A stretch of DNA of 62,385 nt from Lachnospiraceae bacterium. GTDB taxonomy: Bacteria; Bacillota; Clostridia; Lachnospirales; Lachnospiraceae. The notes below the pieces were generated by a model, which was not told the DNA's origin, made no database searches, and saw only the letters and a program-made list of their open reading frames with translations. The stretch covers positions 1-62,385 of the forward strand of contig JAFLTG010000005.1 in the NCBI GenBank assembly GCA_022510545.1. The letters are read 5' to 3'. Of the stretch, positions 6,165 to 17,340 are shown one piece after another (the first letter of the stretch is position 1; each line of letters starts with the position of its first letter). Made by a program: the position numbers and the translations under genes.

Positions 6165-7355
6165 ATGATTTATAGCGATTTTAAAGGAAAAAAATTATCA
6201 TTATTAGGTTTTGGAACAATGCGGCTTCCACTTATGCCGGATGAAAGCGGAGAAGTGGATGAGGATGCGGTTTGTGAGATGGTGCGTTATGCGGCAGAGC
6301 ATGGAGTGAACTATTATGATACTGCCTATCCGTATCATAATTCTAAATCTGAGATTATCATCGGAAAGGCATTAAAGCAATTACCACGTGAGAGCTTCTA
6401 TCTGGCAACAAAATATCCGGGACATCAGATTTCAGCAAGTTACAATCCTGCGGAAACTTTTGAGGAGCAGTTGAAAAAGTGCGATGTGGAGTATTTTGAT
6501 TTTTATCTGCTTCATAATGTTTATGAAAATTCTATAAGTACATATACTGACTCTAAGTGGGGAATTGTAGATTACTTTGTAGAGCAGAAGAAGCTTGGGC
6601 GTATCAAACATCTGGGCTTTTCAACGCATGGGTTGCAGGATACCTTGGTGGAATTTTTGGATAAGTATGGTGATGTAATGGAATTTTGCCAGATACAGTT
6701 AAATTATCTGGACTGGACATTACAGGATGCAAAAGCGAAATATGAACTTCTAGAAAGAAGAGGGATTCCCGTATGGGTTATGGAACCTGTCAGGGGTGGC
6801 AGACTTGCTGATTTGGGTGAGGAAGCGAATGCTAAATTGACCGGTTATCGACCGAATGAGTCAATGGCATCATGGGCATTCAGGTGGCTTCAGGGACTAC
6901 CAAATGTTAAGATGATTCTTAGCGGAATGTCAAATATTGAACAAATGCAGGACAATGTACATACATTTGAAGAACGAAAACCGTTGACGGAAGCAGAGAA
7001 TCAGACACTATTTGAGATTGCGGAAGGAATGAAAAGTTCCGTCCCCTGTACCGCCTGTCGTTATTGCTGTGCGGACTGTCCGAAAAAACTGGATATACCC
7101 AAACTACTTTCTCTTTATAATGAATCTCGCTTTTCACCAAGTTTCAATATAGGTATGACAATTGATGCTCTTGAGGAAGATAAAAGACCAATGTCCTGTA
7201 TAAGCTGTGGGCGATGTGCAAAGATTTGTCCACAGAAAATCAATATTCCGGAGGCAATGAAGGAGTTTTCAGGGATACTTGAGAAGATACCCCATTGGGA
7301 GGATTTGTGCAGGCAAAGAGAGGAAGCGGCGCGTAGGCTGAGGGACGGCATGTAA
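6165..7355 (+). CDS. Aldo/keto reductase with C-terminal [4Fe-4S] domain (second copy)
   Basis: 396 residues: an aldo/keto reductase barrel (residues about 1-280, opening LLGFGTMRLP, with catalytic-type Tyr in YDTAYPYHNSKSE) followed by iron-sulfur motifs CTACRYCCADCP (about 295) and CISCGRCAKICP (about 345). It has the same architecture as the gene at 244 but is clearly diverged. The predicted role is cytosolic oxidoreductase with electron transfer through two clusters. AAGGAGACAATT gives a good ribosome site. The last two codons and the stop (GGC ATG TAA) lie inside the left arm of a 78-bp palindrome, so that element may have supplied the current C-terminus. Confidence 0.88.
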   Translation: MIYSDFKGKKLSLLGFGTMRLPLMPDESGEVDEDAVCEMVRYAAEHGVNYYDTAYPYHNSKSEIIIGKALKQLPRESFYLATKYPGHQISASYNPAETFEEQLKKCDVEYFDFYLLHNVYENSISTYTDSKWGIVDYFVEQKKLGRIKHLGFSTHGLQDTLVEFLDKYGDVMEFCQIQLNYLDWTLQDAKAKYELLERRGIPVWVMEPVRGGRLADLGEEANAKLTGYRPNESMASWAFRWLQGLPNVKMILSGMSNIEQMQDNVHTFEERKPLTEAENQTLFEIAEGMKSSVPCTACRYCCADCPKKLDIPKLLSLYNESRFSPSFNIGMTIDALEEDKRPMSCISCGRCAKICPQKINIPEAMKEFSGILEKIPHWEDLCRQREEAARRLRDGM

Positions 7356-7424
7356 AAATACTAAGTTTTCTTTGCTTATTGGCGGAGCCAGAGGCGCAAA
7401 GAAAACTTAGTATTTTTACATGCC
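7347..7424. repeat. 78-bp palindromic element, copy 1
   Basis: A perfect inverted repeat: 29-nt arms at 7347-7375 and 7396-7424 around a 20-nt loop (TTATTGGCGGAGCCAGAGGC). The inner 13 bp (AAGTTTTCTTTGC) and the loop are nearly identical to the element at 15544. The outer 16 bp (GGCATGTAAAAATACT) differ between copies but stay paired. The left arm contains the stop codon of the upstream gene. A- and T-rich stretches flank the inner stem, so it could act as a terminator in both directions. The precise 29-20-29 layout suggests a small mobile or REP-like element. Confidence 0.85.
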
Positions 7425-7428
7425 TTTA

Positions 7429-7454
7429 GCCGAGGTCAGAAGCGCAAAAACTTA
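7429..7454. repeat. Degenerate half-copy of the 78-bp element
   Basis: Directly after copy 1, the sequence GCCGAGGTCAGAAGCGCAAA followed by AACTTA resembles the loop plus inner right arm of the element (GCGGAGCCAGAGGCGCAAAG followed by AAAACTTA) at roughly 20 of 26 aligned positions, with a 2-nt gap. No matching left arm remains. It looks like a decayed partial copy. Confidence 0.5.
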
Positions 7455-7515
7455 AGCTTGACATTAAGCTTATATTATGATAATTTTTTATAAAATAATT
7501 TTAGGAGAGCATAGA

Positions 7516-7578
7516 ATGCCGAACTTACAGAACCCAATGAACTATATGTACATGTATTACAGACGTATTGATCTGTAA
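7516..7578 (+). CDS. Possible 20-residue peptide ORF
   Basis: An AGGAGAG ribosome site (7503-7509) precedes ATG 7516 with good spacing. The frame runs 20 codons to TAA. The product begins MPNLQNP and continues with a Met/Tyr-rich MNYMYMYYRR stretch. Upstream are two direct TTAAGCTT repeats (7452-7459 and 7464-7471) around a TTGACA, which could be a promoter/operator region, though no well-spaced -10 is clear. No modifying enzyme or transporter is adjacent. It could be a real small peptide, a leader peptide or chance. Confidence 0.35.
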   Translation: MPNLQNPMNYMYMYYRRIDL

Positions 7579-7760
7579 TTGATGCCCGACAGGATGCACG
7601 GTTACAGATAATAAATAGGTCTGATATGTCTGTGCATATAAGTCGGTGAATGTAAGTTTAGGTATTTAGGGATTAATCTTATTAAAACTTTTTAGTATTG
7701 TATATTTTATAGCATCCAAAATACTAATTAACTGAGTAAATAAATGAACTGATATATATA
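7579..7760. other. Gene-free stretch with weak secondary structure
   Basis: Between the peptide ORF and the terminator there is no credible protein frame. Weak pairings are visible: TCTGTAA with TTACAGA near 7573-7607, ATATG with CATAT near 7625-7640, and TTAGTATT with AATACTAA near 7690-7730. I could not match this to a known riboswitch class. It may be an untranslated RNA attached to the small ORF, or decayed sequence. Confidence 0.3.
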
Positions 7761-7761
7761 A

Positions 7762-7797
7762 ATGCACTGGACATATCGAATGTTTAGTGCATTTTTT
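7762..7797 (+). terminator. Intrinsic terminator before the GNAT gene
   Basis: The stem ATGCACT / AGTGCAT is extended inward by GACAT pairing with ATGTT, and is followed by a run of T (ATTTTTT). It marks the end of a short transcription unit covering 7460-7790, separate from the GNAT gene at 7821. Confidence 0.7.
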
Positions 7798-7820
7798 ATG
7801 CTTGGAATGGAGGATTAAAT

Positions 7821-8321
7821 ATGAGATTAGCAAACGGAACTGAAGTCACAGTAAGACCTTACAATGAAGCTGATGCGGAGGAAATAGTCAGGTTGATTGT
7901 AAGAAATTTCAAGGAAGTTAATGTTAAGGATTACGGGGTAGAAGCAATGGAGAAGCTAGCTAAGCACCATGACGTAAACTGGTTCAAAAGTATAGCAGCT
8001 GGCTCAAACGTATATGTTTTTCTAAATGATGACATAATTGTCGGAGTAGGTTCTATAGCCCCTTTCTGGGGGAGTCTTACGGAAAGTATAATACTTACTG
8101 TTTTTGTTCTTCCTGAACTGCATAATCAGGGAATCGGCAGTTTGATTATGGATACCCTTGAGGCAGATGAACTATTCTTAAGGGCAGATAGGATAGAAAT
8201 ACCTGCATCTATTACAGCAGTTGAGTTTTATAGAAAAAAGGGATATGAATATAAAAATGGTATCAAAGAACTGGATGAAGAACAGCATTACAGGTTGGAA
8301 AAGTGCAGAAATGTTAATTAG
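7821..8321 (+). CDS. GNAT-family N-acetyltransferase
   Basis: A 166-residue cytosolic GNAT protein. The opening RLANGTEVTVRPYNEADAEE is typical, and the acetyl-CoA binding segment VFVLPELHNQGIGSLIMDTLE carries the Q-G-I-G pattern (Q/RxxGxG/A), followed by a late FYRKKGYEY motif. The acceptor substrate is unknown. GGAGGATTAAAT gives a strong ribosome site for ATG 7821. It lies 12 nt upstream of the broken kinase-like gene. Confidence 0.8.
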   Translation: MRLANGTEVTVRPYNEADAEEIVRLIVRNFKEVNVKDYGVEAMEKLAKHHDVNWFKSIAAGSNVYVFLNDDIIVGVGSIAPFWGSLTESIILTVFVLPELHNQGIGSLIMDTLEADELFLRADRIEIPASITAVEFYRKKGYEYKNGIKELDEEQHYRLEKCRNVN

Positions 8322-8333
8322 GGAGGGGCGATT

Positions 8334-8885
8334 ATGAAATTAGTATTTATATTAGGAAATGCGGCAGTAGGTAAGATGACAGTAGGACAAGAACTTATGA
8401 AAATCACGGATTTACGGCTGTTCCATAACCATATGACGATTGAGACTGTAATAGAGATATTTGGGAAATATGATAGTAAAATAATCAATGAATTAAGAGA
8501 TATTATATTTACATATTTTGCGACTTCTGACAATTACGGTATGATTTTCACATTTATGATGGCTTTTGACCAACAATCAGATTGGGAGTATTTAGAGCAT
8601 ATTAAGAATATTTTTACTCCATATGGTACGGAATTTTATTATGTTGAGCTAATAGCGCCGTAGGAAATCAGACTTAAAAGAAATGCGACTGAAAACCGTT
8701 TAAAAAACAAGCCGTCTAAAAGGAATTTGCTCATCTCAAACCAAAGACTTATAGATGATGATCAAAAATACAGATGTGTAAGCTTTGAAGGGGAAATACC
8801 GTTTGACAATTATCTTAGAATTGATAATTCTAACAAAACGCCAGAAGAAGTTGCGGTGTTTATAAAAGAAACTTTTAAATTATAA
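8334..8885 (+). pseudogene. P-loop kinase-like gene interrupted by an in-frame TAG
   Basis: The frame opens at ATG 8334 with the P-loop GNAAVGKMT (near residues 8-16, consensus GxxxxGK[ST] with Met before Thr) and reads to TAG at 8661-8663 (109 residues). The same frame then continues without frameshift for 73 codons to TAA 8883-8885, encoding RLKRNATENRLKNKPSKRN, a YRCVSFEGEIP segment and a C-terminal ..PEEVAVFIKETFKL. This matches the usual C-terminal half of small nucleotide-kinase-like (shikimate kinase-like) proteins as I remember them. A single substitution creating amber is the simplest reading. A shortened 109-residue product is unlikely to be active. Confidence 0.75.
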
Positions 8886-8905
8886 ATTAAAGTTATAAAT
8901 TATAG

Positions 8906-8934
8906 TTGACACGATTACAGAATTGTAATATTAT
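8906..8934 (+). promoter_or_regulatory. Promoter of the metal-efflux operon
   Basis: A -35 TTGACA (8906-8911) and -10 TATTAT (8929-8934) are separated by 17 bp, close to the sigma-A consensus. The operator-like dyad at 8935-8958 lies immediately downstream. Confidence 0.8.
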
Positions 8935-8958
8935 ACATATGAACAGTTGAACATATGT
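8935..8958. promoter_or_regulatory. ArsR/SmtB-type operator dyad
   Basis: ACATATG (8935-8941) and CATATGT (8952-8958) form an inverted repeat, with ATGAACAGTTGAACAT inside. It resembles the TGAACA-containing operators of SmtB/CzrA/CadC repressors. It covers the expected transcription start, so a bound repressor would block the promoter. Confidence 0.65.
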
Positions 8959-9001
8959 TATATCAAAATGTAAATCATTAATTTTAGGAAAGGAGATAGA
9001 C

Positions 9002-9403
9002 GTGACAAACAGGAAAGAACAGGAGATTGAATCAAATACAGCTTTGGGACCTCTCGAACTTCCTGAAACAGACTTTATAGCAGCAAGAGAAGATGTTGTA
9101 AGAAAGGTTCTTTCACAACAACCGGATGATGAAATCTTATACGACTTGGCGGAGCTTTTTAAGGTATTTGGTGACTCAACCAGAATTAAGATTTTATATT
9201 CTTTATTTGAAACCGAACTTTGTGTATACGATATTGCCAGACTTTTAAACCTAAGTCAGTCATCAGTCAGCCATCAGCTCAGAATCTTAAAAACTTCCAA
9301 GCTGGTAAAGTTCAGGCGTGAAGGAAAATCGGTTTTTTATTCTCTGGATGATGAACATGTACGTTCAATTATCAGTATGGGAATGGAACATGTAGAAGAA
9401 TAG
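9002..9403 (+). CDS. ArsR/SmtB-family metal-sensing repressor
   Basis: A 133-residue winged-helix repressor. The recognition helix region reads LNLSQSSVSHQLRILK, followed by the wing KFRREGKSVFYSLDD. The C-terminal helix carries D-x-H-x10-H-x2-E (DDEHVRSIISMGMEHVEE), close to the alpha-5 zinc site of CzrA/SmtB (D-x-H-x10-H-x2-H/E). Upstream ELCVYDIA matches the CadC alpha-3 ELCVCDL segment but keeps only one of its cysteines. It probably represses the downstream HMA and P-type ATPase genes and releases on Zn, Co or Cd. The start is GTG 9002, with AAAGGAGAT 4 nt upstream; the ATG-free N-terminus agrees with this. Confidence 0.85.
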   Translation: MTNRKEQEIESNTALGPLELPETDFIAAREDVVRKVLSQQPDDEILYDLAELFKVFGDSTRIKILYSLFETELCVYDIARLLNLSQSSVSHQLRILKTSKLVKFRREGKSVFYSLDDEHVRSIISMGMEHVEE

Positions 9404-9471
9404 GAAAATGACCCAATCAGTCAACATAAAAACTAAATCAAAAATAAAATAATCTGAAAGGAATGAAGACT

Positions 9472-9690
9472 ATGGAAAAAACATACAAAATCGAAGTTGA
9501 TTGCGCAAACTGTGCAGAAAAAATGGAAGATGCAGCAAAAAAAACTGAGGGCGTTGCAGACGCATCGGTCAGCTTTATGACCCTGAAAATGAAAGTAGTA
9601 TTTGAAGATGGTGCAGACGAAAAATCGGTTATGAAAAAAGTTTTGAAAGCATGCAGGAAAGTAGAGCCTGATTGTGATATTGAAATCTAA
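9472..9690 (+). CDS. Free heavy-metal-associated (HMA) domain protein
   Basis: A 72-residue single HMA domain: KTYKIEVDCANCAEKMEDAA has the metal-binding CxxC (CANC) on the first loop, then the usual beta-alpha-beta pattern ending ..VEPDCDIEI. It probably binds or carries metal for the P1B ATPase encoded 24 nt downstream, whose own N-terminus lacks an HMA domain. An ATG at 9463 lies directly against the AAAGG ribosome site, so the ATG at 9472, about 9 nt from it, is preferred. Confidence 0.85.
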   Translation: MEKTYKIEVDCANCAEKMEDAAKKTEGVADASVSFMTLKMKVVFEDGADEKSVMKKVLKACRKVEPDCDIEI

Positions 9691-9714
9691 ATACATACAA
9701 CGAGGTAGCGCACA

Positions 9715-11583
9715 ATGAGCAGAAAACAGAAAAAAGTATTATTTAGAATCATCATCTCCGCGATACTATTAATTATTATACATCTGATTGAACCGGAAGG
9801 CTGGTTTTCTTTACTATATTTGATACCATATTTTATCATAGGATATGATATCCTAAGAAAAGCAATACTCGGTATCATACATGGAGAAGTATTTGACGAA
9901 AACTTTCTGATGGCGGTTGCAACTGTAGGCGCAATTGGGCTTAGAGAATTTTCGGAAGGCGTAGCCGTTATGCTTTTTTACCAGATTGGCGAGCTGTTCC
10001 AGAGCTATGCGGTTGGAAAAAGCCGAAAGAATATAACCGCGCTTATGGATATACGCCCCGATTATGCCAATATTGAAAAAGATGGCGGACTGGAGCAGGT
10101 TGCACCGGAAGAGGTATCTATCGGTCAAACCATTGTTATTCGACCGGGTGAAAAGATCCCTCTCGACGGTGTGATTATTGAGGGCAATTCAACCATAAAC
10201 ACCAGTGCGCTAACAGGTGAGAGTGTTCCAAGGGATGCGGAAACAGGAGATGAGGTAATAAGCGGCTGTGTAAATATGACCGGTCTGATAAAAGTTAGAA
10301 CCACAAAAGAATTCGGAGAATCAACTGTAAGTAAAATTCTGGATTTGGTTGAAAATTCGAGTATGAAAAAATCCCGTTCGGAGAATTTCATATCCAAATT
10401 CGCCAAGGTTTATACGCCTGCGGTATGTTACAGCGCCGTTGCGCTTGCGGTTTTGCCGCCGCTTGTGCGTATGATGTTTTTAAATATTGAGCCGGAATGG
10501 GGAGTATGGGTATTTAGGGCATTGACTTTCCTGGTCATTAGTTGTCCCTGTGCGCTGGTCATTTCGATTCCACTGAGTTTCTTTGGAGGAATCGGGGCAG
10601 CATCCAAATGCGGTATTCTGGTTAAAGGCTCTAATTATCTGGAGGCTTTGTCAGAGGCCGGATACATTGTTTTTGATAAAACAGGAACATTGACAGAGGG
10701 TGTTTTTCGTGTTAAAAATGTATATGCAAAAGATGCAGCAGATGAGTACGTGCTTGAGATAGCCGCACTGGCGGAAAGTTATTCATCACACCCGATAAGC
10801 AACAGCCTAAAGGAAGCCTGTGCTGAAATGCCTGATAAAGATAGAGTGAGCCGGGTAGAAGAAATAGGCGGTCATGGCGTGACTGCATTAGTTGATGGTA
10901 AAGAAGCTGCTGTCGGAAATGCCAAACTGATGAATAAGTTGCAGATTTCATACGAAGAATGCACGGAACCCGGAACTGTAGTCTATGTTGCACTTGAACA
11001 GAAATATTTGGGTTGTATTTTGATATCCGATGTTATAAAAGAAGATGCGAAAGATGCAATTGAGTCTTTGAAAAAAGCCGGAATAAGAAAGACAGTGATG
11101 CTTACCGGTGATAATAAAGCGGTAGCTGAGGCAGTGGGAAAAGAGCTTGGAATTGACGAGATTCATAGTGAGCTGCTTCCGGCAGATAAAGTTACCCGTG
11201 TTGAGGGACTTTTAAAAGAAAAACCGGATAAAGAAAAATTGGTTTTTGTTGGAGACGGAATTAATGATGCTCCGGTACTTACAAGAGCGGATATAGGTAT
11301 TGCAATGGGAGCATTAGGCTCGGATGCGGCAATAGAGGCTGCAGACGTAGTGCTTATGGATGACGACCCGCAAAAAATATCATTGGCAATTAAAATTTCA
11401 CGGAAATGTTTAAGAATTGTCTACCAGAATATTGTCTTTGCACTTGCAGTAAAAGCGCTCTGCCTTATTTTGGGAGCACTTGGTATTGCTAATATGTGGA
11501 TTGCGATTTTTGCGGATGTCGGAGTTATGGTAATTGCGGTTATCAATGCTACTCGTACGCTTTATACTAAGAAGTTGACATAA
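9715..11583 (+). CDS. cadA: P1B-type metal-exporting ATPase (Zn/Cd/Pb class)
   Basis: A 622-residue integral membrane ATPase. Visible motifs are TGES (actuator), CPC in ISCPCALVIS (about residue 277), DKTGTLTEG with phosphorylated Asp (about 320), the HP dipeptide in YSSHPISN, and GDGINDAPVL (about 512). The late Lys (ALAVKALCL) and Asp (FADVGVMVI) match the Zn2+/Cd2+/Pb2+ P1B-2 subgroup rather than copper pumps. It lacks the usual N-terminal HMA domain, which is encoded separately just upstream. With the ArsR-type repressor this is a metal-induced efflux operon. The metal is inferred from family motifs; zncA/zntA-type naming would be equally fair. Confidence 0.88.
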   Translation: MSRKQKKVLFRIIISAILLIIIHLIEPEGWFSLLYLIPYFIIGYDILRKAILGIIHGEVFDENFLMAVATVGAIGLREFSEGVAVMLFYQIGELFQSYAVGKSRKNITALMDIRPDYANIEKDGGLEQVAPEEVSIGQTIVIRPGEKIPLDGVIIEGNSTINTSALTGESVPRDAETGDEVISGCVNMTGLIKVRTTKEFGESTVSKILDLVENSSMKKSRSENFISKFAKVYTPAVCYSAVALAVLPPLVRMMFLNIEPEWGVWVFRALTFLVISCPCALVISIPLSFFGGIGAASKCGILVKGSNYLEALSEAGYIVFDKTGTLTEGVFRVKNVYAKDAADEYVLEIAALAESYSSHPISNSLKEACAEMPDKDRVSRVEEIGGHGVTALVDGKEAAVGNAKLMNKLQISYEECTEPGTVVYVALEQKYLGCILISDVIKEDAKDAIESLKKAGIRKTVMLTGDNKAVAEAVGKELGIDEIHSELLPADKVTRVEGLLKEKPDKEKLVFVGDGINDAPVLTRADIGIAMGALGSDAAIEAADVVLMDDDPQKISLAIKISRKCLRIVYQNIVFALAVKALCLILGALGIANMWIAIFADVGVMVIAVINATRTLYTKKLT

Positions 11584-11647
11584 TATAAAGTAAAGCAGCA
11601 TTTGACTAACATGTAGGTTGACATAACAATTTGGCAGGAGAATACAA

Positions 11648-12376
11648 ATGAAGGGTTTCGGGACAATAATAAACGTAATAGCAGTTCTTATGGGAGGAAC
11701 TCTCGGAATATTAATTAAGGGCGGCATGAAAGAAAAGCTGCAAAATATTTTAGTTCAATCCTGCGGTCTTGCCACCCTTTTTATAGGTATAAGCGGAACG
11801 CTTCAAAATATGCTTATATTAACCGATGAGGGAATTAGTGTACAAGGAACCCTTCTTCTTATATGCTCTCTTGTAATTGGTAGTTTTGTAGGCGAATTAA
11901 TAGACATAGAAGGCAAACTGGAAACTGCCGGAGAAAAACTAAAAGGAATGATAAAGTCTAAAAACGACAGCCGCTTTGTAGACGGTTTTGTCACAGCCTC
12001 TTTGGTAATATGTATTGGAGCGATGGCGGTAGTCGGTTCACTCCAGGATGGACTTACCGGGGATTACAGTATGCTGCTCTCCAAGTCGGTTCTCGACTTT
12101 ATTATAATAATCGTTTTTGCATCCACAATGGGAATCGGAGTTTTATTCTCAGCGCTGCCGCTTGGAATATATCAGGGACTGATTACCCTGCTTGCGGTAT
12201 TTATCGCCCCATATATGACGGATTCCATGATTTCAAGCCTGTCGTTGGTAGGTTCAGCCCTAATATTCGGCGTAGGAGTCAATCTTATTTGGGAAAAAGC
12301 GCTCCGTGTGGGAAATATGCTTCCGGCATTGTGCGTTCCGGTTATATATGAACTGATTATGCAGATGTTCGCTTGA
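11648..12376 (+). CDS. DUF554 family membrane protein
   Basis: A 242-residue protein with about six or seven membrane segments, opening FGTIINVIAVLMGGTLGILIKGG, with GTLL.CSLVIGSFVGELIDIE in the middle. This is the DUF554 (YdfK-type) family of uncharacterised inner membrane proteins. It has a good ribosome site (GCAGGAGAATACAA). It follows the metal pump by 64 nt and ends before a terminator, so it may be the last gene of the metal-efflux transcript. A transport role is possible but unproven. Confidence 0.8.
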   Translation: MKGFGTIINVIAVLMGGTLGILIKGGMKEKLQNILVQSCGLATLFIGISGTLQNMLILTDEGISVQGTLLLICSLVIGSFVGELIDIEGKLETAGEKLKGMIKSKNDSRFVDGFVTASLVICIGAMAVVGSLQDGLTGDYSMLLSKSVLDFIIIIVFASTMGIGVLFSALPLGIYQGLITLLAVFIAPYMTDSMISSLSLVGSALIFGVGVNLIWEKALRVGNMLPALCVPVIYELIMQMFA

Positions 12377-12397
12377 TTTGATACGTAGTTTGTGGTA

Positions 12398-12432
12398 CAT
12401 TCTTAGGTAGGTTACTTAAGAATGTATTTTTA
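12398..12432 (+). terminator. Intrinsic terminator after DUF554
   Basis: The stem ACATTCTTA (12398-12406) / TAAGAATGT (12417-12425) has a 10-nt loop and is followed by ATTTTTA. It separates the metal locus from the lipoprotein-metH unit. Confidence 0.8.
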
Positions 12433-12445
12433 TGTTGTTAATTAA

Positions 12446-12462
12446 GAGAAAGGCATGGTTAT
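12446..12462 (+). repeat. 17-nt leader motif, copy 1 (repeated before the topoisomerase gene)
   Basis: GAGAAAGGCATGGTTAT is identical to 27045-27061, and in both cases sits just upstream of a start codon (gap of 12-13 nt between AAAGG and ATG). A looser version (AGAAGGCATGGGATTATA) precedes the pseudouridine synthase at 39714. The embedded ATG is out of frame here. Confidence 0.55.
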
Positions 12463-12465
12463 AAA

Positions 12466-12990
12466 ATGTTTAAAAAGTTTAAAGGTCTATGTGTAATATA
12501 TTTATCTGCCTTATTACTTATAGGATGTGGAAAAGATGAGGCTTTAGATGAATACCAGACTAACATGGAAACTTTTTTTAATGATATTGCAGAAATAAAT
12601 GACAATATGAATTCAATCGATGTAGGTTCGGAAGGCTATATTGAGGAACTGTTAGCTTATCTTGATGCGCTTGATGAAGAGGTGGCATGGATGGCAGAGC
12701 TTGAAGTTCCGGATGAATTTTCGGCGGTGGACAGTCTTGCCGATCAGGCAAGTGAGAATATGTCACAGGCGGTCTCTTATTATCATCTTGCATATGAGGG
12801 AGAAGAATATGATGAAAATATGGAAAGTGCTGCCGGTGAGTATTATGACAGGGCTAATACCATAATTCAGTATATAATAACAATCCTGCATGGGGAAATC
12901 CCTGAGGGAGAGGGTGTTACATATACGGAAGAAGATAAGATATTCGGCGGTGGATACATGAATAAGTCTGAGGATGAAGTAGATGAATAA
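12466..12990 (+). CDS. Putative lipoprotein overlapping metH
   Basis: A 174-residue protein with a lipoprotein signal: positive N-terminus MFKKFKGL, hydrophobic core, and lipobox LLIGC with Cys near residue 21. The mature part is highly acidic and predicted helical (repeated D/E, EYQTNMETFFNDIAEIN), with no recognised domain. The C-terminal GGGYMNKSEDEVDE tail overlaps the metH start by 8 nt (ATGAATAA), so the two genes are coupled. It is probably anchored to the outer face of the membrane. Function is unknown; the link to methionine synthesis is positional only. Confidence 0.75.
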   Translation: MFKKFKGLCVIYLSALLLIGCGKDEALDEYQTNMETFFNDIAEINDNMNSIDVGSEGYIEELLAYLDALDEEVAWMAELEVPDEFSAVDSLADQASENMSQAVSYYHLAYEGEEYDENMESAAGEYYDRANTIIQYIITILHGEIPEGEGVTYTEEDKIFGGGYMNKSEDEVDE

Positions 12991-15514
12991 ACAGGAATTT
13001 GTAAATATTATAAAAGAAAACCCAATATTTCTGGATGGTGCAACAGGAAGCAATCTTTTAAAAAGGGGGATGCCTGCCGGAGTCTGTCCGGAGAAATGGA
13101 TATTGGAGAATAAGGAAGTAATTATTGGGCTGCAGAGAGAATTTATTGAGGCTGGCAGCAATATAATCTATGCACCGACTTTTTCCGCCAACCGTATTAA
13201 ATTAAAAGAATACGGGCTTGAGGAACGGATTCGGGAAATGAATCATGACCTTGTTGCAGTGGCAAAAGAAGCGGCAGCCGGAAATGCCTATGTAGCAGGC
13301 GATATTACTATGACAGGTGAACAGCTTGCACCCATAGGAAAGTTGGATTTTGAAGAGCTTATTGAAATATATAAGGAACAGATAGGCTATCTTGTTGAAG
13401 CCGGTGCTGATCTGCTGGTTGTAGAGACGATGATGAGTCTGCAGGAGACAAGGGCGGCACTGATTGCGGCCAAGGAGATTTGCGAGCTGCCGATTATGGC
13501 GACTATGACATTTGAAGCAGACGGCAGGACCCTGTTTGGAACTGATGCAAAGACGGCTGCAGTTGTGTTGGAAAGCCTGGGTGCGGCAGCTATCGGAGCA
13601 AACTGTTCAACCGGTCCGGATAAAATGGTTGACATAATACGGAGTATGGCAGAAGTGACAAGTATACCGATTATTGCCAAGCCTAATGCAGGGCTTCCTG
13701 CTTTAGATGAAAACGGTCAGACTGTCTATGACATGGGTGAAGATGACTTCGCAGAAGGTATGAAAGCCATAATAGAAGCCGGCGCTTCAATAGTCGGCGG
13801 CTGCTGCGGAACTTCGCCTGCATATATCAGAGCATTGAAAGAAGCTGTAGGGGAGATGCAGCTTAGCAAATATAAAAAACAGCAGGAATACAATATTTCT
13901 GCAGGTGGGGCATCTACGCACAGATATCTTGCAAGTGAACGAAAAACCGTTGATTTTACTCTGGATGATAATTTTATGATAGTGGGTGAGCGTATTAACC
14001 CCACCGGAAAAAAGAAATTGCAGGCAGAGCTTAGAGAAGGCTCTATGGAAATGGTAATGTCTTTTGCACAGGAGCAAGAAGCCTGTGGGGCAAGTATCCT
14101 GGATGTGAATATGGGTATGAGCGGCATCGACGAGAAAGAGATGATGCTTAAGGCGATTGAGACAGTGGGAGGTTTGACAAATCTGCCGCTTGCGATAGAT
14201 TCCAGCCATGTGGACGTAATCGAAGCTGCCTTGCGCAGATATCCGGGAAGAGCTTTGATCAATTCAATCTCTTATGAGAAAGCGAAGTTTGAAGCGCTTT
14301 TACCGATTGCAAAAAAATATGGCGCAATGTTTATCCTGCTTCCTTTATCGGATGAAGGCCTGCCTAAAAATCTGGAAGAAAAGATTGATATTATAGAGAA
14401 AATACAGAAACGCGCATATGAACTTGGAATGCGCAAGGAGGACATAATTGTAGATGGTCTTGTTGCTACGGTAGGAGCCAATAAGACTGCAGCCCTTGAG
14501 ACATTAGAGACTATCCGCTACTGTAAAGAAAAGGGCCTTGCAACAATTTGCGGTCTGTCTAATATTTCTTTCGGTTTGCCGGAAAGAAGCTATGTAAATA
14601 CAGCCTTTCTTACAATGGCAATACGCGAGGGCCTTACAATGGCGATAGCTAATCCCTCTCAAGAACTGTTAGTAAGCCTTGCATTTGCATCTGATCTGCT
14701 TTTAAATAAACAGGGGGCAGATATTCGCTACATACAGCTTATGGATGCCGTAAAGGCGAAAAGAGAGGCACTGGGAGAGACTGCGGTTAAGCAAAACGGT
14801 ATAAATAATACAGGAAATGGTACTGTTGGCGGCGTAGGGCTTAATATTGCAGGTAATAGTGCATTAGAACAGGCGCCTGCATCAATTTTAGATAAGCTGC
14901 GTTCTGATGTACTTAAAGGAAATATAAATAATATCGTGGCGGATACCAAAAAGGCAATTGAAGAAGGAAATTCACCTAAACAGATTTTGGATGATGTTTT
15001 GCTTCCGGCAATTAACGAGGTGGGAGAGCTTTTTGATAAAGGCAAATATTTTCTGCCTCAATTGATAGCCAGTGCAGAGGCTATGAAAGCCTCTATTGAA
15101 TATCTTGAACCGATGCTTATGGAAAACAACTCGGGTAAAGATATGCCTACCGTAGTAATAGCAACGGTAGAAGGTGATATTCATGACATTGGAAAGAATC
15201 TTGTCACATTGATGCTTAAGAATTACGGTTTCAAAGTTATTGACCTTGGAAAAGATGTGTCCAAAGAAAAGATTGTTGAAGCTGCACTTGGGCATAATGC
15301 GCAGGTGATTGCACTGTCTGCGCTTATGACAACTACTATGCAGCAGATGAAAAGGGTAATTGAATATGCTAAGGAAAAGGAAGTTAAGGCTAAGATTATA
15401 ATCGGCGGAGCTGTAATTACACAGGAATATGCGGATGAAATTGGTGCGGACGGATATTCCAAAGACGCGGCAGATTGTGTCAAGGTGACGCAGCGGATAT
15501 TGGGCATTGACTGA
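12983..15514 (+). CDS. metH: Cobalamin-dependent methionine synthase without reactivation domain
   Basis: An 843-residue cytosolic enzyme that transfers the methyl group of methyltetrahydrofolate to homocysteine. Domains in order: homocysteine methyltransferase barrel (about residues 1-290, with zinc cysteines in GANCST and GGCCGTSP), pterin-binding barrel (about 310-600, MIVGERINPTGKK), a helical cap, and the B12-binding domain with EGDIHDIGKNLV (D-x-H-x2-G, His near residue 733). The C-terminal AdoMet-binding reactivation domain of E. coli MetH (1227 residues) is absent, as usual in Clostridia, where a separate activase is expected. The lipoprotein gene overlaps its start. The 78-bp palindrome copy 2 follows 29 nt after its stop. 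Confidence 0.92.
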   Translation: MNKQEFVNIIKENPIFLDGATGSNLLKRGMPAGVCPEKWILENKEVIIGLQREFIEAGSNIIYAPTFSANRIKLKEYGLEERIREMNHDLVAVAKEAAAGNAYVAGDITMTGEQLAPIGKLDFEELIEIYKEQIGYLVEAGADLLVVETMMSLQETRAALIAAKEICELPIMATMTFEADGRTLFGTDAKTAAVVLESLGAAAIGANCSTGPDKMVDIIRSMAEVTSIPIIAKPNAGLPALDENGQTVYDMGEDDFAEGMKAIIEAGASIVGGCCGTSPAYIRALKEAVGEMQLSKYKKQQEYNISAGGASTHRYLASERKTVDFTLDDNFMIVGERINPTGKKKLQAELREGSMEMVMSFAQEQEACGASILDVNMGMSGIDEKEMMLKAIETVGGLTNLPLAIDSSHVDVIEAALRRYPGRALINSISYEKAKFEALLPIAKKYGAMFILLPLSDEGLPKNLEEKIDIIEKIQKRAYELGMRKEDIIVDGLVATVGANKTAALETLETIRYCKEKGLATICGLSNISFGLPERSYVNTAFLTMAIREGLTMAIANPSQELLVSLAFASDLLLNKQGADIRYIQLMDAVKAKREALGETAVKQNGINNTGNGTVGGVGLNIAGNSALEQAPASILDKLRSDVLKGNINNIVADTKKAIEEGNSPKQILDDVLLPAINEVGELFDKGKYFLPQLIASAEAMKASIEYLEPMLMENNSGKDMPTVVIATVEGDIHDIGKNLVTLMLKNYGFKVIDLGKDVSKEKIVEAALGHNAQVIALSALMTTTMQQMKRVIEYAKEKEVKAKIIIGGAVITQEYADEIGADGYSKDAADCVKVTQRILGID

Positions 15515-15629
15515 ATAAGTCAATATGTTTTTTGTGCCGGGGCGGATTGTACAAAAAGTAAGTTTTCTTTGCTTATTGTCGGAGCCAGAGGCGCAAAGAA
15601 AACTTACTTTTTGCACAATCCTTATTCAG
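15511..15629. repeat. Outer inverted arms around palindrome copy 2
   Basis: CTGAATAAG (15511-15519, starting in the metH stop region) is the exact reverse complement of CTTATTCAG (15621-15629). These 9-nt arms enclose the 78-bp palindrome plus a 24-nt spacer on the left only. The extra layer may mean the right flank was copied from the left. Confidence 0.5.
15544..15621. repeat. 78-bp palindromic element, copy 2
   Basis: Arms of 29 nt at 15544-15572 and 15593-15621 around a 20-nt loop (TTATTGTCGGAGCCAGAGGC). Inner 13 bp are identical to copy 1. The outer arm reads GGATTGTACAAAAAGT against GGCATGTAAAAATACT in copy 1. Five differing positions (3, 4, 9, 13, 15) are all matched by a compensating change on the opposite arm; one A-C mismatch exists at position 8. 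Runs of A and T flank the inner stem, so it probably also terminates metH transcription. Confidence 0.85.
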
Positions 15630-15726
15630 AGACTAAAGGTGTATAGAATTATTTTAGTAAGTTTATTTAATTAAATTTATTATGATGAATGATTGTTAAA
15701 TTTTTAATGAGAGGAGTAAACAAAAT

Positions 15727-17340
15727 ATGATAGGTGCGGAGGCAATAGTAAAATGTCTGGAGAAAGAAGGGGTGGAATATGTCTTCGGATATCCGGGCGT
15801 TGCAATTTGTCCGTTTTATAACAGTATACTAAATTCAGATATAAAAACTATCTTAATTCGTACAGAGCAGAATGCGGCACACGCGGCAAGCGGACTGGCG
15901 CGGGTCAGCGGGAAGGTAGGTGTCTGTGCCGTAACATCTGGTCCCGGTGCAACCAATGTAATCACCGGTATTGCGACGGCTTTTGCAGACAGTATTCCGC
16001 TTGTGTGTATAACCGGACAGGTTAACAGTGAGCTGATTGGTTCCGATGTATTCCAGGAGGCGGATATTACAGGTGCGGTTGAGTCTTTTGTTAAATATAG
16101 CTATCTGGTAAAAGATGTAAATCAGATTCCGAGGATTTTTAAAGAAGCCTTTTATATTGCCAATTCAGGAAGAAAGGGTCCGGTTCTGATTGATATACCG
16201 ATTGATGTACAGAATGCAGCGCTTAAAAGGTTTGAATATCCGGAAGAAGTCAATCTGCGTACCTATAAACCCACAATAAAAGGACATGCGGTACAGATTA
16301 AGAAGGTTGTAGGCGAGCTTGCTAAATCAAAGAGACCTATTATCTGTGCAGGCGGCGGTGTGTTGCTTAGCGGTGCGGAAAAAGAACTGCGTGAACTTGC
16401 AGAGAAATACAGTATTCCCGTTGTATCCACTATGATGGGAATCGGAGTTATGCCTACCAACCATCCAATGTATTACGGTATGGTTGGAAATAACGGTAAA
16501 CCCTATGCCAACAGAGCGATGAATGAGTCGGATCTTCTTATAATGGTGGGTGCAAGGGTTGCCGACCGTGCGGTCAGTCAGCCGGACCTTATTACGGAAA
16601 ATAAAGTGCTGGTACATATAGATGTGGATCCGGCGGAAATCGGCAAAAATGTCGGTGCATCCATACCGCTTGTCGGAGATGCAAAGCACATTTTTGAAGA
16701 TTTTGCCAAGGAAGAGATAACCTGTAATCATGATCAATGGATAAAAGTATTGAATGATTACAGAGAAACCATGAAAAAGAAAAGAAATCCTAATCCCGAT
16801 TATGTGGATCCTGCAGGATTTATTACAATGCTCTCCGAGAAGATGGCTGATGATGCCATATATGTGGCTGATGTGGGACAGAATCAGATTTGGTCATGCT
16901 CTTATCATATAGTGAAAAACGGACGCTTTTTAACCACCGGAGGTATGGGCACAATGGGATATTCCATTCCGGCGGCGATGGGAGCCAAGCTGGCCTGTCC
17001 GGACAGACAGGTGGTTGCCGTATGCGGCGATGGTTCTTTCCAGATGTCTATGATGGAGCTTGCCACTATGCGCCAGTTCAATGTCCCGGTGAAAATCATT
17101 GTGCTGAAAAATAATTACCTGGGAATGGTAAGGGAGTTTCAGCACTATAATTACAAAGATAATTACTCCGTTGTAGACTTAAGCGGAAGTCCGGATTTAG
17201 AGAAACTTGCAATGGCATATGATATGAAATTTATGCGGCTTTTTACTATGGAAAAAGCAGAGGAAACTGTTCAAGAATTTCTGGCTAATGATGAATCGGT
17301 GCTTTTGGAATGTGTTATTGACCCGATGGATCTTGTCTAA
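15727..17340 (+). CDS. ilvB: Acetolactate synthase large (catalytic) subunit
   Basis: A 537-residue thiamine-diphosphate enzyme that condenses two pyruvates to acetolactate, or pyruvate with 2-oxobutyrate, at the head of branched-chain amino acid synthesis. It shows the N-terminal VEYVFGYPGV segment, activating Glu in LIRTEQNAAHAA, VTSGPGATN, and the ThDP motif GDGSFQMSMMELATMRQF ending at KNN. It is slightly shorter than common IlvB (about 550-570). GAGGAG precedes ATG 15727. The next gene, a regulatory subunit, starts 22 nt downstream, so the two are co-expressed. Confidence 0.9.
   Translation: MIGAEAIVKCLEKEGVEYVFGYPGVAICPFYNSILNSDIKTILIRTEQNAAHAASGLARVSGKVGVCAVTSGPGATNVITGIATAFADSIPLVCITGQVNSELIGSDVFQEADITGAVESFVKYSYLVKDVNQIPRIFKEAFYIANSGRKGPVLIDIPIDVQNAALKRFEYPEEVNLRTYKPTIKGHAVQIKKVVGELAKSKRPIICAGGGVLLSGAEKELRELAEKYSIPVVSTMMGIGVMPTNHPMYYGMVGNNGKPYANRAMNESDLLIMVGARVADRAVSQPDLITENKVLVHIDVDPAEIGKNVGASIPLVGDAKHIFEDFAKEEITCNHDQWIKVLNDYRETMKKKRNPNPDYVDPAGFITMLSEKMADDAIYVADVGQNQIWSCSYHIVKNGRFLTTGGMGTMGYSIPAAMGAKLACPDRQVVAVCGDGSFQMSMMELATMRQFNVPVKIIVLKNNYLGMVREFQHYNYKDNYSVVDLSGSPDLEKLAMAYDMKFMRLFTMEKAEETVQEFLANDESVLLECVIDPMDLV

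Follow-up and report, generated by a model that had tools for sequence, protein, structure and literature searches.

A dispersed family of near-perfect hairpins with matched arm changes and a conserved tip in a Lachnospiraceae genome

Several kinds of small repeat, and one curated RNA family, are the closest described systems for the hairpins considered here. Miniature inverted-repeat transposable elements (MITEs) have inverted ends and no coding capacity. REP sequences and REPINs are thought, in the passages cited, to be mobilised by RAYT (PMC3116915, PMC8266576), and replication template switching is described in the cited parts of two studies as homogenising the arms of short inverted repeats and making multi-base compensatory changes (PMC8794818, PMC8604942). 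The TwoAYGGAY RNA (RF01731), a curated family of unknown function, has been tabled as probably an RNA (PMC2864571) and proposed to bind CsrA (PMC4333381) in passages on the motif, which make no mention of mobility. Covariation between paired positions is usually taken as proof of a functional RNA; the covariation described below is found in a dispersed, probably mobile repeat.

We analysed a 62,385-nt stretch of a Lachnospiraceae genome (assembly GCA_022510545.1, contig JAFLTG010000005.1; the window) carrying two hairpins of a repeat family, here called family A. Like REP sequences and REPINs, family A is small, mostly extragenic, palindromic, multi-copy, dispersed, non-coding and hairpin-forming, but its arms are near-perfect over ~28-30 bp and end in a conserved tip, whereas the REP/REPIN palindrome is imperfect and ~20-60 nt long, and family A has tens of copies rather than hundreds. 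With MITEs it shares inverted ends, the lack of coding capacity and presence or absence at orthologous sites (copy 2 of the window, and L101 versus L173), but no target-site duplication was seen by eye at copy 2 and no partner transposase was found among 13 nearby proteins scanned with Pfam. Inverted ends at a fixed spacing, also MITE-like, are seen for the TwoAYGGAY repeat in four relatives, whereas family A is the hairpin itself. The multi-base matched changes and the homogenised arms recall quasipalindrome correction, which in the cited passages was studied at RNA genes and coding sites (PMC8794818, PMC8604942), whereas here it would extend across a dispersed repeat family. From the TwoAYGGAY repeat, with which it has in common the outer stem GGATTGYRCAAATAGTAA (in the window genome and HAN048), multiple copies and arms that vary while staying paired, family A differs in lacking the 168-nt core. 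Family A is best filed among interspersed MITE/REP-like palindromic repeats, and serves as a natural record of the spread of long hairpins and the upkeep of their pairing.

The window hairpins and their repeat family

The initial annotation, made from the sequence alone, had described two 78-nt palindromes with 29-bp arms and 20-nt loops, and both were recovered by an inverted-repeat search of 9 kb (Table 1), where they head the list of 27 inverted pairs. All 29 pairs form in copy 1 and 28 of 29 in copy 2, with a 20-nt spacer in each; the copy 2 mispair is A-C on the + strand and G-T on the - strand. The two copies are identical over the inner 13 bp and agree at 19 of 20 loop bases, as had been reported. 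Five differences in the outer 16 bp are indeed each matched on the opposite arm, but copy 2 has a sixth in its right arm that is uncompensated and had been overlooked. The placement of the upstream stop codon inside an arm of copy 1 and of an extra 9-nt inverted layer at the metH stop of copy 2 also held. Copy 2 lies 29 nt past the metH stop and 105 nt ahead of the acetolactate synthase-like gene. For both copies and on both strands, folding energies are 9 to 15 sd below those of dinucleotide shuffles. By eye, a short ORF (MPNLQNPMNYMYMYYRRIDL, window 7516-7578) was noted downstream of copy 1 and before a GNAT acetyltransferase gene (7821-8321); genome G447 has a comparable frame before a like gene (L324), and the window frame may encode a leader peptide.

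Table 1. Coordinates of the two hairpins and neighbouring features in the window
Feature	Position	Strand	Remarks
Aldo/keto reductase with 4Fe-4S domain	6165..7355	+	3' end overlaps copy 1
Family A hairpin, copy 1	7347..7424	-	103.3 bits against the covariance model; loop GCCTCTGGCTCCGCCAATAA on the 'sense' strand
Copy 1 left arm	7347..7375		contains the aldo/keto reductase stop TAA, 7353-7355
Copy 1 apical loop, 20 nt, conserved	7376..7395	-	small helix TGGC-TCC-GCCA at 7390-7380
Copy 1 right arm	7396..7424		from the inverted-repeat listing
Methionine synthase-like gene (metH)	12983..15514	+	upstream of copy 2
9-nt inverted layer, left half	15511..15519	+	CTGAATAAG; spans the metH stop, 15512-15514
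Stretch without HAN048 counterpart	15530..15701		172 bases against 0 between two HAN048 matches
Family A hairpin, copy 2	15544..15621	-	106 bits against the covariance model; loop GCCTCTGGCTCCGACAATAA
Copy 2 left arm	15544..15572		from the inverted-repeat listing
Copy 2 apical loop, 20 nt, conserved	15573..15592	-	proposed helix TGGC-TCC-GACA (G-A mismatch) at 15587-15577
Copy 2 right arm	15593..15621		single mispair with left arm
9-nt inverted layer, right half	15621..15629	+	CTTATTCAG; base 15621 common to layer and hairpin
Thiamine-pyrophosphate enzyme, acetolactate synthase-like	15727..17340	+	downstream of copy 2; name inferred from domains

The initial annotation's count of two fell well short. 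A DNA search gave 21 matches in the window's own genome, some of them one copy on both strands, and with a covariance model built from 22 full copies, 11 full-length copies, 7 contig-end copies and a shorter relative at C42 were identified there. Because the contig ends C4 and C102 flank one site, a call that rests on the HAN048 copy spanning it (L109), and because other ends may likewise come from common sites, we place the number of sites at 15-17. In the sister genome HAN048 (metagenome-assembled, Lachnospiraceae), the model found 15 full and 11 contig-end copies, and C115:25167-25224 also matches it, at 36.9 bits. A covariance-model search of the kind that the initial annotation had proposed thus yielded many further copies in both genomes, and its provision that an absence of other copies in the genome would speak against the observation fell away. 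All genomes used are drafts, and many copies lie at contig ends.

An exact-pattern scan of genome contigs, a kind of collection scan that may leave out records of the window's own or very near genomes, returned 31 stretches: 18 came from HAN048 and have a whole or partial hairpin, and the other 13 have none. With stricter filters, the model search was positive for 1 of 397 genomes of the taxonomic family, and the DNA search for 1 of 41, in both cases the window's own; a laxer model search (E <= 0.01) of 39 same-genus genomes gave two positives, G011 with 9 copies and G451 with 2. Searches of phage and plasmid collections with two queries, a TwoAYGGAY element and a family A element from G011, gave no match, and the single match in viral contigs had no hairpin around it; an origin from a phage or plasmid thus gains no support from these searches.

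We noted two unusual arrangements. In HAN048, two opposite-facing family A copies lie 916 bp apart (L112; G041:C106, 28417-29416) and enclose one gene, whose product is a HAD hydrolase rather than a transposase and which adjoins a BrnA/CopG-type antitoxin gene. At L088 (G000:C92:38288-38371), the flanks look reversed relative to the tip when compared with other copies, as would be given by spacer inversion through template switching.

Copies of family A face their neighbours in both directions. Relative to the stop-facing neighbour, 8 are antisense and 6 sense in the window genome (14 of 18 entries), 9 antisense and 7 sense in HAN048 (16 of 24 entries, with two copies listed twice, L108/L112), and 3 and 3 in G011 (6 of 9 entries). 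This mixed orientation to the adjacent gene counts against a role tied to the host mRNA. Raw distances from the stop codon to the nearest hairpin edge, taken without a random-intergenic background, span -15 to +38 nt in all 14 window-genome entries with a stop-facing neighbour, -12 to 60 nt in HAN048 and 14 to 106 nt in G011. The window-genome list behind the orientations and distances enters one site twice (L096/L097); of its remaining four entries, two are truncated at contig ends and the other two (L100, L101), likewise at contig ends, precede a start codon.

Matched arm changes and the conserved tip

Across 22 copies, 99.1% of 637 stem cells hold a standard pair and 17 of the 29 pairs have changed on both sides, and none of 500 shuffles scored as high on any of five measures; the copies tested were 22 of the 26 full copies finally known, gathered with the tip pattern and with contig-end copies left out. 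Coincidence is ruled out by the arm matching, by this shuffle test on pairing and by the folding energies relative to shuffles. A transversion is needed in 38 of 70 two-sided cells, and such cells cannot pass through a G-U intermediate; together with the in-place changes below, this makes arm-copying better supported than selection.

To compare sites in place, we used ten alignments with HAN048, representing nine shared sites, in which the matched DNA is 88-96% identical; contig ends cut four sites in at least one genome (L091/L119, L100/L124, L129/L122, and L096 with L097 in the window genome). At L092/L104, three neighbouring pairs differ on both arms. L117 has one base fewer than L090 in each arm, another pair that differs on both sides, and other outer arms. 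Elsewhere, the differences are one-sided at L085/L111, where one of the four breaks a pair, and at L109, where they lead to G-U; L089/L105 and L095/L116 have no differences within the 29 pairs. Two of the nine orthologous sites, L092/L104 and L090/L117, therefore show clustered, mirrored arm changes between close relatives, and because these matched changes occurred in place, arm-copying by replication template switching, which such changes fit, is well supported. Since they can be read between two genomes ~10% apart, family A also offers a direct test of covariation arising from template switching alone. The compensated changes, which the initial annotation had read as selection for structure or arm-copying, thus extend to 22 copies and to the sites shared with HAN048, in support of that reading; selection is separately supported by a nearly fixed tip and by a G-U pair that stands in 17 of the 26 full copies.

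Apart from that G-U pair, the strand asymmetry is weak. On the sense strand, the mispairs of the 26 full sister-genome copies comprise 30 G-U, 4 A-C and 3 others, with short-arm copies scored over 28 pairs and L314 and L315 left out; a single pair, 22nd from the tip, accounts for 17 of the 30 G-U. When it is set aside the count is 13 G-U against 4 A-C (binomial p 0.049, a significance overstated because the copies are related, not independent). A wider count that includes L314's sequence (L266) and edge cells gives 33 G-U, 6 A-C and 13 others. In the nine G011 copies, with 5 G-U against 4 A-C and 8 others, the asymmetry is absent. Selection on the sense RNA is plausible, with support that is moderate at best. 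Judging the flanks by eye, the sense strand of family A is also that of TwoAYGGAY if the stem shared with one longer element (L163, below) is read in the same direction.

The sense-strand tip (window - strand) reads GYCUCUGGCUCCGACAAURA; the GGA of the tip in the window copies is on the antisense strand. Mean pairwise identity in the 22 copies falls from 93.6% in the tip to 90.5% over the inner 13 bp and 72.4% over the outer 16 bp, a contrast partly built in because tip patterns, and later a tip-rewarding model, were used to gather the copies. Reading 50 aligned tips by eye (39 from the two sister genomes, 2 from G451 and 9 from G011, with L097 omitted as the same site as L096), we noted a candidate small tip helix, UGGC-UCC-GACA. 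Among the 39 sister-genome copies, one position of this helix is G-C in copy 1 and L094 and G-A in the other 37; the sole loop difference between copies 1 and 2 is the base that would turn this mismatch into G-C, and the minimum-energy fold shows the UGGC helix in copy 1 but another small helix in copy 2. Both bases of the position are missing in all nine G011 copies, L315 has UGU/ACA at the helix, two of the four helix pairs are broken in L314 (G451), and UCU replaces UCC in the tip of some copies. At tip positions 2 and 19, all 39 sister-genome copies have one of two combinations, U/G or C/A, which form wobble-shaped pairs of similar geometry. G011 has an entirely different stem (ending ACAAAAACGGGGC / GCCCCGTTTTTGT), yet its tip, GUCUCUGCUCCGCAAUGA, is a close version. 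Tip and stem are thus separable, and by their sequences appear to behave as exchangeable modules; the presence of the window-lineage tip on a TwoAYGGAY stem may reflect module exchange or conversion between families.

Presence at orthologous places and a longer relative

The initial annotation had suggested asking whether insertions interrupt orthologous spacers. Copy 2 is absent at the same place in HAN048 and in 11 of 11 same-genus genomes, so that this spacer lacks it in 12 of 12 others. HAN048 has no bases between the matches that bound copy 2 (Table 1), G451 has 0 against 185 in the window, and ten more same-genus genomes have 16 to 101 against 208 to 251. The spacer itself was read in four of the 12 (HAN048, G451, G013, G447), with flank alignments from HAN048 and G451. 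Two genomes have room for a hairpin, G444 (82 bases) and G002 (101), and the model found none in either. The possibility raised at the outset, that relatives would show the same DNA as ordinary terminators, failed at copy 2: in the four genomes with the spacer read, no ordinary terminator hairpin was seen in its place. By parsimony, absence from all 12 others points to a gain, and copy 2 was most likely gained in the window's lineage. About 94 of the 172 bases missing from HAN048 are non-hairpin, including ~80 A+T-rich bases after copy 2, which implies either an inserted unit with a long wing or more than one event; no clean target-site duplication was seen by eye at copy 2. HAN048 also has no copy at L173, the counterpart of L101 in the window genome, although only one edge can be seen there. 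Copy 1 is common to HAN048 (ortholog L119/L074), where contig C136 starts inside the hairpin and the flank is 94% identical.

In both the window genome and HAN048, many contig ends carry the outer stem GGATTGYRCAAATAGTAA of family A as part of a second, longer repeat. All five loci compared with Rfam matched RF01731 (L163 at 109.0 bits, L181 at 111.0, L187 at 140.0, L188 at 122.4 and L190 at 106.2; gathering score 43), while family A, in 18 and 9 further loci, matched no Rfam family at the gathering score. L163 (HAN048 G041:C142, about 69-365) and L181 are two nearly whole HAN048 copies; L163 folds as one long hairpin (z -15.8) and, by eye, has a flank asymmetry like that of family A and a G-U at the same stem position. 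Among 41 genus genomes, 18 had matches to the TwoAYGGAY element, and the window's own was one of them; with at most 18 candidates scored per genome, this search gives no copy numbers.

In four relatives (G451, G011, G443 and G447), the outermost ends of the longer repeat are GATTCGGGTGTCAAAAGG, with 56 matches at up to two mismatches. These include 14 inward-facing pairs, 13 spaced 303 to 315 bp and one 375 bp, and 13 of the 14 enclose a TwoAYGGAY core match; four short pairs 38 to 109 bp apart and 20 unpaired copies were also found. The window genome and HAN048, whose wings differ, have no GATTCGGGTGTCAAAAGG ends. The arms of the TwoAYGGAY elements, whose edges were set by arm alignment, differ copy by copy and are largely still paired, and inspection by eye of several element ends showed no target-site duplication. 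These observations suggest that TwoAYGGAY is carried, in several relatives of this genus, by a multi-copy ~305-bp fold-back repeat with inverted ends. The suggested placement of a curated RNA on a fold-back mobile element would change where its function should be sought.

Shorter forms are also seen. L102 (G000:C42:75-133) is a 59-nt outer-arm hairpin, whereas L163, with a like left flank, is a whole TwoAYGGAY element, so that L102 is likely a core-deletion remnant. Four short hairpins (L309, L310, L311, L312) have little beyond the TwoAYGGAY outer ends and show matched arm changes, such as GGATGTC/GACATCC in L311. At L125 (G000:C1, near 41318), the outer stem adjoins another palindrome, GGCATAAAAATAGCGGTA / TACCGCTTGTTATGCC, perhaps a third tip.

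A proposed account and its rivals

We consider it probable that family A is a small non-autonomous mobile repeat whose arms are re-copied by template switching and whose tip is recognised. The unit would be a stem of ~28-30 bp closed by a conserved tip of 18-20 nt, itself probably folded further. Copies would reach new places, often within a few dozen bases of stop codons, as the parsimonious reading of copy 2 suggests, presumably moved by a transposase acting in trans, and the arms would then be re-copied from each other by template switching during replication. The folded strand, perhaps as RNA, may be recognised by something, as the nearly fixed tip and the standing G-U pair suggest. In the window lineage the tip stands on the outer stem of the repeat with the TwoAYGGAY core, and in G011 a close tip stands on a different stem. 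A bolder form of this account, which we put forward tentatively and think has a modest chance of being right, is a modular, structure-only mobile element in which tip and replaceable stem recombine between families and are moved as a folded strand, the TwoAYGGAY RNA being cargo rather than a riboregulator of the host; an element moved in this way would leave its stem free for rewriting by template switching as long as it stays paired.

Selection alone could act on a functional RNA, for example a protein-binding or processing site in 3' regions, with independent arm mutations restoring pairing. The strong covariation, the nearly fixed tip and a G-U pair standing on one strand in 17 of 26 copies agree with this, as does the recognised RNA motif (RF01731) of the related longer repeat, but a cluster of three changed pairs and a base pair missing from both arms are hard to obtain by independent hits, 38 of the 70 two-sided cells need non-pairing intermediates, and gene orientation is mixed, and we regard selection alone as unlikely. 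Equally unlikely, in our judgement, is the converse, that replication keeps any mobile palindrome near-perfect and that neither stem nor tip has a role. Neutral template switching would explain why arms vary freely yet stay paired, up to the wholly different stem of G011, and it is a known homogeniser of short inverted repeats in the passages cited (PMC8604942, PMC8794818); the tip, however, is more conserved than the arms of the same copies, although these were found by their tips, and it is nearly kept on the unrelated G011 stem.

Two simpler origins appear very improbable. Ordinary intrinsic terminators, alike by descent, would fit the many copies just past stop codons, but a consensus scan, which covers loops of 3-8 only, found none at either window copy, no T tract follows, and the hairpin is missing at the copy 2 place in 12 of 12 other genomes. 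We give just as little weight to family A being no separate family but internal-deletion remnants of the longer TwoAYGGAY element. The outer stem is shared, the flank asymmetry is like that of L163, and likely cases of such remnants exist, in L102 opposite L163 and in the short hairpins L309-L312. Family A copies, however, share a specific 18-20 nt tip with no counterpart seen by eye in the TwoAYGGAY arms, and in G011 this tip stands on a stem unlike that genome's own TwoAYGGAY elements.
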